Shown: positions 31,319-37,343 of the stretch, piece after piece
How positions within the stretch are numbered: the first letter of the stretch is position 1
Layout of the letters: every line of letters starts with the position of its first letter
Assembly (NCBI GenBank): GCA_031254875.1
Contig: JAIRTW010000020.1
Location: 1-55,895, forward strand
Direction of reading: 5' to 3'
DNA length: 55,895 bases
Source of the DNA: Candidatus Bathycorpusculum termitum
Lineage (GTDB): Archaea > Thermoproteota > Bathyarchaeia > Bathyarchaeales > Bathycorpusculaceae
The notes under the pieces: generated by a model
Seen by the model: the letters and a program-made list of their open reading frames with translations, nothing else
The model's database searches: none
Told to the model about the DNA's origin: nothing
Made by a program: the position numbers and the translations under genes

Positions 31319-31377
31319 AGCACGTTGTTGAGTATTAACTTGTAAGCATATTTTCTTGTTTTTATGGAGTGTTATTT

Positions 31378-32202
31378 TTGAAGTCCGCTACGAAAAGTTC
31401 AGCCATGCTTACCGCCGGGGCCTTTTTAGCCACGGGGGTTTTTCTGCTTGTTTTCTCCTTTCTTTTTGAAATGCAGATAGCTGCCTTTATTGGATTAGGC
31501 TTAACTTTTTGGGGTGCCCTTTTTGCTTTGGTGCGGAGCGGAAGTTATGTTGATAGCGGCCTGCTTGACAGCAGCGCCCAATCCACTTACTCCACCATTG
31601 ATCGAATGATTACTGATTTAAAATACAACGGACAAGGCTACTACATTCCTGCCTATCCCAAAGATGTCTCTTTGCCTGATTACCTAAAGAATCTGCGTGA
31701 ACCTGTGGTTTTTATTTCTGAGGACTTTGATGGCAAACCATCCATTGAAGAGTTAGCACAGAGCAAATTTATCTCTACTCAAACCCGGGGTGTTTTTGTA
31801 GCCTCCCCCGGTGCAGGTATCATGACGCAAATTGAGCGGCAACTACGGCTGGATCTTAGCAAAGTCAGTCTCGATGAACTCGCTGATAGGTTGCCTAAAT
31901 TACTCACGGAAAATCTAAATTTAGCTAAATCCGCCGACATGATCCTAACACCCAATGGCGCTGAGTTTAGAGCACACGGTATACTCTATGAAAGTCTATA
32001 TAACCCCGAGAGCAGTCCCAAAAGCCTCAGCCTGCTGGGTTGCCCTGTTGTCAGCGCCGTAGCTTCAGCGCTTGCTAAGACTTCGGGGAAAACCGTGGTT
32101 ATCTCAGAACAAAAAATCTTGCCGGGAAACAGCGTTTTTGCAGTGTACACTTTTGTTGGGAGACAAAAAAATGAGCTTTCCTCTAGAGATCACCGATATT
32201 AG
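31378..32202 (+). CDS. Conserved archaeal two-span membrane protein of unknown function
   Basis: About 274 residues starting at the TTG at 31378, with GGAG about eight bases upstream. Two adjacent hydrophobic helices near the N-terminus (AMLTAGAFLATGVFLLVFSF, IAAFIGLGLTFWGALFALV) are followed by a cytosolic-looking domain with TQTRGVFVASPGAGIMTQIE and SLLGCPVVSAVASALAKTSG, ending FAVYTFVGRQ. The LGCPVVSAVASALAKTSGKT segment is reminiscent of small-molecule-binding V4R/MEDS-type motifs, but this is weak. It overlaps the next small membrane protein by 32 bases, indicating a two-gene unit that closes the glycan locus. Function unknown. Confidence 0.7.
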   Translation: MKSATKSSAMLTAGAFLATGVFLLVFSFLFEMQIAAFIGLGLTFWGALFALVRSGSYVDSGLLDSSAQSTYSTIDRMITDLKYNGQGYYIPAYPKDVSLPDYLKNLREPVVFISEDFDGKPSIEELAQSKFISTQTRGVFVASPGAGIMTQIERQLRLDLSKVSLDELADRLPKLLTENLNLAKSADMILTPNGAEFRAHGILYESLYNPESSPKSLSLLGCPVVSAVASALAKTSGKTVVISEQKILPGNSVFAVYTFVGRQKNELSSRDHRY

Positions 32203-33175: not shown

Positions 33176-34018
33176 CTATTTTGAGAGTGCTCTTAGATTT
33201 TGCCAGAGATGTTCCATTATTTTCCAGCCCTTTCTTCGCGGTATACAGCCAGAGACTAATATCTTGTTTGAAAAGCTTCTCTCACTTATATCATATATAC
33301 TAATCCAGCCCTCAGTATGAACCCTTACGCCATTCTGATCGGGCTTGAATGACACCTCAAAATACTTTGGAGCAGTCAACCCCAATCCGCTGGGAATTCC
33401 TATGCGTCCTTTTATGAACCCCTCTCTTTCAACTTCTATTTTTATGTTCTCTTCTCTTATCCAGCTATGGATCGCTTCTTTTACTTCCTCGGGCGGTCTT
33501 CCTGAAACAAAAACCTCTTGGATTGTTCTATTTTGATCTTTTTGGTTTTGCTCTTTGGTTTTTGGGCCAATCATTCGATAGAAAAAATAAACAAATGTTA
33601 CTGAGGAAATGAAACCAAATACAGCTCGCACCGCCTGATATGTGTCTAAATAACCTGAAAAATAAAAATACAGAAATATCAACAGCAACAAAGTTGGAAA
33701 CAGAACTGCTACAATCCAAAATCGACGCCACCAAACCTTCTTAGTCTTCAAGGTACTCTCCGGTTCTGGAAACTCTGTTAAGAACCTGGAAGCGAGTTTC
33801 CCTTTTTCAGAGAGCCTATACTGTTTAGCCTCCGTTTTTTCCAAAAGGTCGCCTAAGATCTTTAGATGATAATTAAGCGTTCCAGTGCTACTACCAATTT
33901 GCAGAGTTTCCATGAGCTCGGTATAGCTTAGGCTTTCTCTATCCGTTAAGGTCAGAATAATTTTTCTTCTTGTTTCGTCCTTTAGGATCTTATTTAGAGA
34001 TTCGATTTTAGAACTCAT
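33176..34018 (-). CDS. Membrane-tethered ArsR-like HTH transcription regulator
   Basis: 280 residues. An N-terminal winged helix (ETRRKIILTLTDRESLSYTE, TGTLNYHLKILGDLLEKTEA, QYRLSEKGKLASRFL) is of the ArsR-like type common in archaea. It is followed by two membrane spans (about 98-121 and 128-148) and a C-terminal domain of about 110 residues (FVSGRPPEEVKEAIHSWI ... KYFEVSFKPDQNGVRVHTEG). The DNA-binding part is thus attached to the membrane, and the C-terminal domain may sense a ligand. Its promoter carries the same imperfect palindrome as the next gene (34048-34074), consistent with autoregulation. Confidence 0.8.
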   Translation of the reverse strand: MSSKIESLNKILKDETRRKIILTLTDRESLSYTELMETLQIGSSTGTLNYHLKILGDLLEKTEAKQYRLSEKGKLASRFLTEFPEPESTLKTKKVWWRRFWIVAVLFPTLLLLIFLYFYFSGYLDTYQAVRAVFGFISSVTFVYFFYRMIGPKTKEQNQKDQNRTIQEVFVSGRPPEEVKEAIHSWIREENIKIEVEREGFIKGRIGIPSGLGLTAPKYFEVSFKPDQNGVRVHTEGWISIYDISERSFSNKILVSGCIPRRKGWKIMEHLWQNLRALSK

Positions 34019-34047
34019 GCGACGTTATATCAAGGCGCTCGCATTTT

Positions 34048-34074
34048 AGGTTTTTTGACAAAAAAAGTCGTCAA
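34048..34074. promoter_or_regulatory. Candidate operator upstream of the regulator (copy 1)
   Basis: A 27-bp element with the inverted repeat TTGAC-N10-GTCAA, 30 bases upstream of the regulator ATG. It is 23/27 identical to a second copy at 35006-35032. On the minus strand CCTAAAATGCG directly follows and could serve as TATA box, so the site overlaps the TBP/TFB-binding region. Confidence 0.55.
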
Positions 34075-34081
34075 ACAAAAA

Positions 34082-34960
34082 TTAGGGTTTTGTATACTCA
34101 ACCAAAGTCCTCTCGGTATACGAGGTTGTTATGCGTTCAGCTCCCGGTAAATTTGTGGTTGCTACCTGCTGTGTTAGGTCAGCTTTAATTAAGCGGCAAG
34201 TTCCCATCTCTATGTATGAGGTGCCGTTTAGTTGGACACTCATGCCGTCGATGCTTGCAAAGATACCCTCGTCGTCTGAGTGAAGGCTTAGAGCATTGCT
34301 GGTTACTTCGATTCGCATGGTTTGGAAGGTGCCTGCTGGGACGGTTAACTTTTGGATTTCTGCAAATTTTAAAGTGACCTCGCCTGTCAGCCCAGAGTTT
34401 GCATTACCTGTGTTTACGGGGATGTTCCAGACATCGCCGACTTTAACCTTAGGCTGAGCCAAATATGCTAAAATTGTTGGATTGCTGACGTTGTAGAAGA
34501 TAAGTGGTGCCCCGGGTGCTAAAAAGTTGTTGTAATAACTTGTCTTGTTGATGTTTAGTGTAATTGAAGGTAGCGTATGGCCAAGTAAGTCGGGGATCAT
34601 AGTAACTGTTTGGTTTATCGTGTAGCTCTCCTCATCTGAGTTTAAAACATCCATAATTATTGTTGAAGTGTAGCTCTCACGATCTCCTCCAGTGGGGGGC
34701 AAAGCAAGGGATGTGTTGACCATTTGAGTTATTACTATGTTTGTAGTTTCATAAACCATACGATCGCCTACCGTATAGTTTAGGCTTAACTCCAAAGATG
34801 AACCAACAATTTGTGGAATCAAAAGAGCCCCCGCGATTATCACTATGAGTACCGCTAACACTGCAAAGATAACATAGACGGTGCGATGACGTTTTTTGCC
34901 GCTGCCTTGAATTTCAGGGGATAGCGGCGACGAAATAGGGCTATTTTGCTGTTTGAACAT
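34082..34960 (-). CDS. Membrane-anchored extracellular protein, likely target of the adjacent regulator
   Basis: 292 residues from the ATG at 34958-34960; the longer frame to 35032 runs through the promoter and is not preferred. A Pro/Ser-rich cytosolic start precedes one membrane helix (VYVIFAVLAVLIVIIAGALL, about 30-49). The outside domain is rich in beta strands and N-X-S/T sequons (SLNYTVGDRMVYETTN, VKVGDVWNIPVNTGNANSGL, VPAGTFQTMRIEVTSNALSL). The last block resembles the lipoprotein-like fold that ends in a VPAGTF-type strand. The gene lies 63 bases downstream of the regulator gene's start-side promoter, and its own promoter carries the second operator copy. Function unknown. Confidence 0.75.
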   Translation of the reverse strand: MFKQQNSPISSPLSPEIQGSGKKRHRTVYVIFAVLAVLIVIIAGALLIPQIVGSSLELSLNYTVGDRMVYETTNIVITQMVNTSLALPPTGGDRESYTSTIIMDVLNSDEESYTINQTVTMIPDLLGHTLPSITLNINKTSYYNNFLAPGAPLIFYNVSNPTILAYLAQPKVKVGDVWNIPVNTGNANSGLTGEVTLKFAEIQKLTVPAGTFQTMRIEVTSNALSLHSDDEGIFASIDGMSVQLNGTSYIEMGTCRLIKADLTQQVATTNLPGAERITTSYTERTLVEYTKP

Positions 34961-34994
34961 TAAACCGATCTCCAATAGGCTATTGAAATGTGAT

Positions 34995-35008
34995 AAGCCT
35001 TTAAAAGG
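34995..35008 (-). promoter_or_regulatory. TATA-like box of the extracellular-protein gene
   Basis: Minus-strand CCTTTTAAAGGC lies about 40 bp before the ATG at 34960, putting the transcription start near 34976. It abuts the operator copy at 35006-35032. Confidence 0.45.
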
Positions 35009-35032
35009 TTTTTTGACCAAAATTTTCGTCAA
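35006..35032. promoter_or_regulatory. Candidate operator upstream of the extracellular-protein gene (copy 2)
   Basis: Second copy of the 27-bp imperfect palindrome with TTGAC-N10-GTCAA (TTTTTTGACC on one side, CGTCAA on the other). It is 46 bases before the ATG and directly upstream of the TATA-like CTTTTAAAG. Sharing with the regulator's own promoter is seen directly; regulation by it is inferred. Confidence 0.55.
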
Positions 35033-35421: not shown

Positions 35422-36240
35422 TTATTCATAGTTTTCAGCTTTAAAGTGATGGCTGATTTTTCTAAAATAAATCAATAAACCTGCGGCTACAATGGCACCT
35501 CCAAAGATTGCACCAACTATCAGCAGAGTTGCTGGGTGAGTGAATATAGCGTTCTTGGGGTATGTCTGATTTGGGGATTGTGGTTGGTTGCCGTTAGATG
35601 TCGCAGAGGGCATTGATTCGAGTTGATTAGATACTTCATTATTGTATGCAGACATAGTCAGAGTTACAGTGTTGCTCCAACCACTTTTCTCCCCCGTCCA
35701 AACATACTCTAAGCCGAGGGGATGTGAAATTAATTGTGTAATACCCCCATTCATTGCCTCCACTTGAAAATCAATCTTTGAACCAGGATAAGCCTGAACC
35801 CCCGATCCGGAAATACCCGCATCAAACCAGTCATCGGAACTTCCCCAAAAAGTTATCACAGTATATTGAGAATCAGACTGAACTGGAAAGCCTTGGGAAG
35901 GTCGGAAACGTTCAGCCCATGCGTCTTCTGAGGCAAAATACCCTTTCGTTCTAATGTTGTACTCTAATCTGGAAAAAGAGGGCTGATTTTTAATTGTAAC
36001 TTCGATGGCTCTTTTTGTTTTTTGATAACCCTGGGTAGTTACGGTTCCCCCAGTGGCAGAATCGATATACTGAGCGGGAAGCTCATCATAAGAATACTCA
36101 ACAAAGCTTACGGTAAACTCGGGTATAGCAGGTTTCTTTGGAGTTGTCTCAGCATACGCCTCACCTGCATAAGCAATGCCTGTAAAAAATAATCCACTAA
36201 TTAACAGGGCAAACAGGCATGCGCGAAATATTTTTCTCAT
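35422..36240 (-). CDS. Secreted surface protein with C-terminal membrane anchor
   Basis: 272 residues from the ATG at 36238-36240; the frame extends to 36456, but the extra 72 residues look non-coding. A signal peptide (IFRACLFALLISGLFFTGIA, about 4-23) is followed by a beta-rich outside domain (FTVSFVEYSYDELPAQYIDS, RAIEVTIKNQPSFSRLEYNI, WSNTVTLTMSAYNNEVSNQL). Then comes a short Ser/Asn/Pro linker and a membrane helix (LLIVGAIFGGAIVAAGLLIY) with a short cytoplasmic tail. The layout is that of archaeal surface-anchored proteins, and the sequons suggest glycosylation. Family name and role are not known. Confidence 0.75.
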   Translation of the reverse strand: MRKIFRACLFALLISGLFFTGIAYAGEAYAETTPKKPAIPEFTVSFVEYSYDELPAQYIDSATGGTVTTQGYQKTKRAIEVTIKNQPSFSRLEYNIRTKGYFASEDAWAERFRPSQGFPVQSDSQYTVITFWGSSDDWFDAGISGSGVQAYPGSKIDFQVEAMNGGITQLISHPLGLEYVWTGEKSGWSNTVTLTMSAYNNEVSNQLESMPSATSNGNQPQSPNQTYPKNAIFTHPATLLIVGAIFGGAIVAAGLLIYFRKISHHFKAENYE

Positions 36241-36683: not shown

Positions 36684-37343
36684 ATGGCCCTTGCTTATCT
36701 TCTAGGTAAAGGTGCATCGAAGGTGTTGCATACAAAGATTAACATACCTCTATTGCTGGTTCTATCAATACTGCCCGATATAGACATCGTCTTTGGGGTT
36801 TTGTTTCACTCCCCTTTCCATAGGGGTCCGACGCACTCGCTTATTGTGGCGGCGCTTATCTTTATCCCCGTCTTTATTATCTACCGTAAAAAGGCGGTGC
36901 CTTACTTTTTGGGGTTGATTTCTCATTTCTTAATCGGTGATTTTATCGTTGGGGGTCAATTGCTGTTATTGTGGCCGCTTTCCTTCTCAAGGTTTGGGTT
37001 GCATGAGCTGGGTTTTCCCTTCATCAGTATATACAGCAGTGTAAATGTCGCTTTGGAACTAAGTTTATTTGTCATAGCCACTCTTGTGCTAATCATATCC
37101 CGTGACTGGAAAGTCTTCTTTAAGGGTCGCTTATCCAATCTTGTGCTCATAATTCCTCTGACGACCGTTCTTCTGCCAAGCACCATTGGTTATCCCTTTA
37201 CTGATTCTTTGCTAGTGATTGAACCTGCATTGGCATTGGCACACATCTTTTACCTTGTGCTTTTCAGTATTGCAGTTTTTGCCACATTGGTGTCTCTCTA
37301 TAGACGTTGGTTTGGTAGCGGCAACAAAAAACCCCTTGCGTAG
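36684..37343 (+). CDS. YdjM-like DUF457 membrane-bound metal-dependent hydrolase
   Basis: 219 residues, five or six membrane spans. SILPDIDIVFGVLFHSPFHR then GPTHSLIVAALIF is the signature: the Asp pair and the HRGPTH motif would bind metal. The following YFLGLISHFLIGDFIVGGQL supplies a further His/Asp. The family is annotated as inner-membrane metal-dependent hydrolase of unknown substrate. The ATG at 36684 follows a non-coding stretch, and no obvious TATA box is seen. The C-terminus is a short basic cytosolic tail. It is monocistronic, facing the secreted protein genes on either side. Confidence 0.8.
   Translation: MALAYLLGKGASKVLHTKINIPLLLVLSILPDIDIVFGVLFHSPFHRGPTHSLIVAALIFIPVFIIYRKKAVPYFLGLISHFLIGDFIVGGQLLLLWPLSFSRFGLHELGFPFISIYSSVNVALELSLFVIATLVLIISRDWKVFFKGRLSNLVLIIPLTTVLLPSTIGYPFTDSLLVIEPALALAHIFYLVLFSIAVFATLVSLYRRWFGSGNKKPLA

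Follow-up and report, generated by a model that had tools for sequence, protein, structure and literature searches.

A gene pair in the window (the whole 55,895-nt stretch of DNA that was analysed) very probably encodes a membrane-bound one-component regulator that controls its own gene together with that of a neighbouring surface protein, through predicted binding of a dimer at a palindrome shared by the two promoters. The DNA-binding and membrane domains of this regulator reside on one polypeptide, as expected of a membrane-bound one-component regulator. In the proposed circuit, the cytoplasmic N-terminal winged helix would dimerise on the palindrome TTGAC-N10-GTCAA, a 20-bp element that abuts the presumed BRE/TATA elements of both the regulator's own promoter and that of its neighbour. 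The regulator would in this way control its own synthesis, and the level of the surface protein would be set in step with that of the regulator. The putative operator is not special to this pair and appears to belong to a whole paralogous family of regulators. A shared operator with autoregulation had been proposed in the sequence-only reading, and this interpretation is supported by conservation of the motif before both genes and by divergent pairs in which a single palindrome serves both. The features of the locus are listed below.

Coordinates of the regulator-target locus within the window
Feature	Position	Strand	Basis or remark
Regulator gene (280 aa), encoding an ArsR-like winged helix at the N terminus, two probable TM helices and a C-terminal domain	33176..34018	-	ORF; Pfam
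C-terminal domain of regulator	33179..33547	-	conserved across 11 aligned orthologues
Two probable TM helices, about residues 100-118 and 131-149, external loop of ~12 residues	33572..33721	-	hydropathy, AlphaFold
DNA-binding winged helix (residues 8-83) with recognition helix STGTLNYHLK	33770..33997	-	
Presumed BRE/TATA of regulator promoter, AAAAACC TAAAA	34044..34054	-	
Predicted operator 1, palindrome TTGACGACTTTTTTTGTCAA (coding-strand reading)	34055..34074	.	36 bp upstream of regulator ATG
Target gene (292 aa), encoding a basic cytoplasmic tail, a single TM helix and an extracellular domain	34082..34960	-	
Presumed BRE/TATA of target promoter, AAAAACC TTTTAAA	35000..35012	-	
Predicted operator 2, palindrome TTGACGAAAATTTTGGTCAA (coding-strand reading)	35013..35032	.	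upstream of target gene

The exact pattern TTGAC-N10-GTCAA occurs only twice in the window, at the two operator positions of the table. The 27-bp blocks first delineated around these copies (34048-34074 and 35006-35032) are identical at 23 of 27 positions, with coordinates and counts correctly given, and the TATA-like box described for both promoters is indeed present directly downstream of each palindrome copy. In Markov simulations of the window (n=400), exact matches averaged 0.07 and no run (0/400) contained two inside 1 kb, so that chance is insufficient to account for two copies less than 1 kb apart, each preceding a gene. When two mismatches were allowed, 28 palindromes were found in the window compared with 29.5 expected from shuffled sequence; there is thus no enrichment at this level, and the informative signal within the window is the exact pair alone. 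The whole 2.3 Mb assembly holds five exact palindromes compared with two for the reversed pattern, and about two to three copies per genome are therefore explicable by chance. The other three exact palindromes of this genome (C37, C43 and C62) were considered as operators and rejected, as they look like chance occurrences whose number is close to that of the reversed control; the C62 copy is situated at the 3' end of a gene of 506 aa. Scans of the window for Rfam families and tRNAs were negative.

The decisive evidence that the putative operator is a real feature is its conservation in relatives. The conserved unit spans 31 bp, TTGAC-N10-GTCAA-AAnnCC(T/C)(T/A)AAA, in which the 20-bp palindrome abuts the presumed BRE/TATA with zero indels. 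A blind search of 32 genomes of the genus (up to two mismatches) recovered this unit far above the reversed control, which totalled 5, and a blind search of 91 genomes of the family (up to one mismatch) returned 35 matches compared with 3 for the reversed pattern. By inspection, 22 of these 35 matches directly precede a homologous regulator and 10 precede a target homologue (32/35); of the remaining three, one precedes the gene of an ABC-transporter ATPase (G012:C6:20818), one is an additional site in the interval separating a target from its regulator (G012:C9:1963), and one closely follows a target that now has no detected regulator (G028:C118). All three matches outside the genus (G115, G118 and G055) precede regulator homologues. 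Across 33 aligned sites, the information content amounts to 1.29 bits per position over the 31-mer, compared with 0.14 in the upstream flank and 0.25 in the stretch from TATA to ATG, which argues that the unit is under selection and is more than a sequence copied along with the gene. The check in related genomes suggested by the sequence-only reading thus came out in its favour, since the motif is kept before both genes in L006/L106, L127, L099, L101, L109 and L108. The L006 homologue keeps the palindrome in both promoters, operator 2 is retained in the target orthologues L006/L106 and L127, and in L007 (G014) the regulator retains its palindrome and the upstream target is present as a degraded remnant only.

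Some of the surrounding loci show additional features. At L100 (G012:C6:18500-23500), the ABC-transporter ATPase gene behind the operator follows a run of small membrane proteins carrying an N-terminal RIRGW(I/F/L)P motif. A perfect palindrome at position 2023 of L111 (G016:C141) is located about 44-55 bp upstream of the gene for a 603-aa secreted protein, which begins with a rhodanese-like stretch (by eye) and is a possible further member of the regulon. In L105 (G029:C176), genes resembling window positions 31369-32202 and 36684-37343 (by eye) are adjacent, with the regulator-target pair absent between them and an operator-like 31-mer remaining nearby, near position 2180.

The regulator matches the Pfam families DUF7347 (PF24038; 8e-9, 36 bits, gathering score 27.6) and HTH_5 (1e-4, 22.2 bits, cut-off 22.0); its orthologues share 50-82% identity, and assemblies of Candidatus Bathycorpusculum (Bathyarchaeia) are the source of the close homologues. 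The literature search returned no paper naming DUF7347. AlphaFold models the winged helix with pLDDT values mostly of about 70-83, and the nearest PDB folds retrieved by Foldseek are YodB, BigR, HlyU and CadC, all of ArsR type, with a TM-score of up to 0.79 on the target structure; a PDB profile search with the regulator gave a weak ArsR match only. Two TM helices are probably present: AlphaFold places helices at residues 89-120 and 126-150, and the second segment falls below the hydropathy cut-off used in the window regulator and above it in several orthologues. The TM pair is flanked by basic stretches (KTKKVWWRRFW before TM1 and PKTK after TM2), which under the positive-inside rule would place both ends of the protein inside and ~12 residues outside, and the C-terminal domain is probably cytoplasmic. 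The architecture originally described, a winged helix with two membrane spans and an unfamiliar C-terminal domain, agrees with Pfam and hydropathy; for the last domain, Pfam yielded nothing up to E<=10 and the AlphaFold model was unusable (pLDDT below 50). The membrane-sensing role suggested by the sequence-only reading is less secure than the shared operator, since the predicted topology leaves no more than the short loop outside. A signal would enter either via this loop and the two TM helices or via the probably cytoplasmic C-terminal domain. A canonical metal-sensing ArsR identity was rejected, as the protein contains a single Cys, which is located in the C-terminal domain.

Within the family, the presence of the motif tracks the predicted recognition helix of the regulator. 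Among regulator loci collected by protein similarity, independently of the motif, a palindrome matching at least 9 of 10 positions lies upstream of 34/41 regulators with a TG-type helix (S/N-TG-x-(L/F)-N-Y-H) and of 0/7 without TG (Fisher p=5e-5, a value that is indicative only and overstates the case because paralogues are phylogenetically non-independent), a level attained by 1.8% of random positions. In most regulators, the distal end of the palindrome is situated 54-58 nt before the start. L131 (G009), a full-length member of the same regulator subfamily, has the helix NNGLLNFHL and lacks the motif, and part of the TG-helix regulators have variant sites only. The distant NTG-helix regulators L153, L156, L138 and L152 have divergent forms of the palindrome (GATAAC-N4-GTTATC-like or TTGATAA-N..-GTCAAATA), a hint that the operator drifts along with the helix.

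The target protein exposes an extracellular domain of about 240 aa that is beta-rich and weakly similar to DUF3108, and its homologues are present in 18 of 101 relatives. The AlphaFold model of the target (mean pLDDT 36, 2 sequences), for which the input came from the window and related loci, was unusable, and a PDB profile search with the target returned nothing reliable. A palindrome precedes all 12 targets that adjoin a regulator (three with one or two mismatches), compared with 3 of 13 that do not (p=1e-4, again only indicative). In the divergent pairs L107, L111 and L114, the intergenic region holds a single palindrome flanked on either side by a TATA-like box. Many regulators possess an intact operator and no nearby target (L098, L118, L121, L132, L112, L115, L119 and L123), which suggests that autoregulation is the constant element and the surface gene an optional one.

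Other observations concern genes around or related to the target. Adjoining the target on the same strand is a gene (window 35422-36240) for a secreted protein whose TM helix is C-terminal, with no operator seen upstream. A second target gene persists in degraded form in the window's own genome (L140, G000:C113, about 2375-2607), with 67% identity over 43 aa and an internal stop. Reciprocal decay is seen in G014 (L137 on C5, L117 on C35 and L129 on C100), where the target upstream of an intact regulator survives only as a remnant; three target copies are found elsewhere, none with an operator in front and two with an operator-like palindrome just behind and no detectable regulator.

The promoter layout bears on how the regulator may act. 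The TATA-to-ATG distance is 25 nt in the window regulator and about 24-26 nt across regulators, and the regulator mRNA is likely leaderless. Together with the palindrome and its fixed spacing to the BRE/TATA, this distance points to a dimer that would act on the pre-initiation complex. In archaea, the sites of activators are typically located upstream of the BRE, and those of repressors overlap the promoter or lie downstream of it (PMC5512572, PMC4158304). The conserved sites occupy the upstream position, and activation is for this reason somewhat favoured over repression; a regulator dimer at fixed spacing upstream of the BRE would then recruit TFB/TBP. It is possible, though less probable, that the same circuit is built on an ArsR/SdpR-style autorepressor, in which the dimer blocks TFB at the adjoining BRE until it is released by a signal from the membrane, which would allow expression of the regulator and the surface protein. 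Autorepression is the usual mode of ArsR-type regulators, and the winged helix of the present protein is ArsR-like. Furthermore, all 11 orthologues gave matches to the model for the autorepressor SdpR, at scores below its cut-off, and the palindrome touches the presumed BRE, so that a bound dimer could exclude TFB; the placement of the conserved sites upstream of BRE/TATA nevertheless remains that usual for activators in archaea.

Other readings reassign the roles of the components. That the surface protein is a sensory partner modulating the regulator, beyond being its mere output, seems rather unlikely. Such membrane partners are exemplified by ToxS and TcpH, which modulate ToxR and TcpP, and the adjacency of the genes, the membrane anchoring of both products and the general lack of an operator at lone targets are consistent with this role; however, the many intact-operator regulators without a nearby target gene imply that the regulator can work alone. 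It is improbable that a different, soluble global regulator binds the palindrome and that the membrane proteins are merely members of its regulon. Although the G012 operator before the ABC-transporter ATPase gene, which is neither regulator nor target, would fit such a regulon, the near confinement of the motif to the regulator/target gene family and its loss with changes in that family's recognition helix, even within an orthologous group (L131), argue against it. The absence of enrichment at two mismatches in the window would suit a motif that arose by chance or that reflects basal-promoter (BRE/TATA) features with no specific regulator, but the genus-wide excess over the reversed control and the specificity for one gene family make this explanation scarcely credible.

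The nearest known analogues of the preferred membrane-bound one-component regulator are ArnR and ArnR1, which in Sulfolobus acidocaldarius activate archaellum genes as membrane-bound HTH proteins and whose target promoter contains inverted-repeat boxes (PMC6396743); the resemblance is one of described layout. Both systems feature an archaeal membrane-bound one-component regulator with an N-terminal HTH anchored by two TM helices, surface-structure genes as known or predicted targets, and inverted-repeat sites in the target promoter. ArnR has the domain order HTH-HAMP-sensor-TM-TM (PMC6396743), whereas the present proteins are arranged as HTH-TM-TM-C-terminal domain (~120 aa) or as an HTH with about four TM. 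In addition, the conserved genes behind the operator encode regulators and a DUF3108-like single-pass extracellular protein instead of archaellin, and each typical regulator also has the operator in its own promoter. Given the different domain order, the unrelated target and a likeness in outline, these proteins are not classified as ArnR.

The DNA-binding domain shares its fold with the ArsR/SmtB family (YodB, BigR, HlyU and CadC); unlike these proteins, the present regulator is membrane-tethered, has its single Cys outside the wHTH and lacks a canonical Cys metal site, and it scored under the cut-off of the curated ArsR model. SdpR of Bacillus subtilis is an ArsR-type autorepressor coupled to a separate membrane protein, SdpI, in contrast to the single polypeptide that unites regulator and membrane part here; against the SdpR model, the regulator scored 20 bits (cut-off 100 bits). 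GvpE, the haloarchaeal gas-vesicle activator, is a soluble bZIP-like protein whose palindromic site abuts the BRE between divergent promoters, a configuration also seen here with no relation implied.

G012 has the operator at no fewer than five regulators and three targets, and the membrane/sensor halves of the family include two TM with a C-domain, about four TM, and a double HTH. In L099 (G012:C6:38000-57999) and L101 (G012:C9), four regulators with a perfect palindrome and two with variants are spread over two contigs, which also contain three target genes with the operator, and one 311-aa protein (L101:3249-4181) combines two DUF7347 winged helices. The chances are about even that these genes represent a lineage-specific expansion in which the recognition helix and operator stay fixed and the membrane/sensor half diversifies, yielding many sensors, a shared operator set and built-in cross-regulation. 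Membrane-bound one-component regulators are a known kind; the combination of one wHTH-operator pair with several membrane/sensor halves appears to be new. Archaeal membrane-bound transcription factors are barely studied, the 2019 study of ArnR/ArnR1 describing itself as the first biochemical analysis (PMC6396743), and no account of a comparable regulator-operator system in Bathyarchaeia came up in the literature searched. With a defined operator, a co-varying helix, natural motif-loss variants and predicted promoters, the binding and the sign of regulation are testable in vitro without culturing. The host lineage comprises little-studied gut archaea. If the proposed expansion is true, diverse membrane sensors would jointly control themselves and paralogous surface proteins via a shared operator set.
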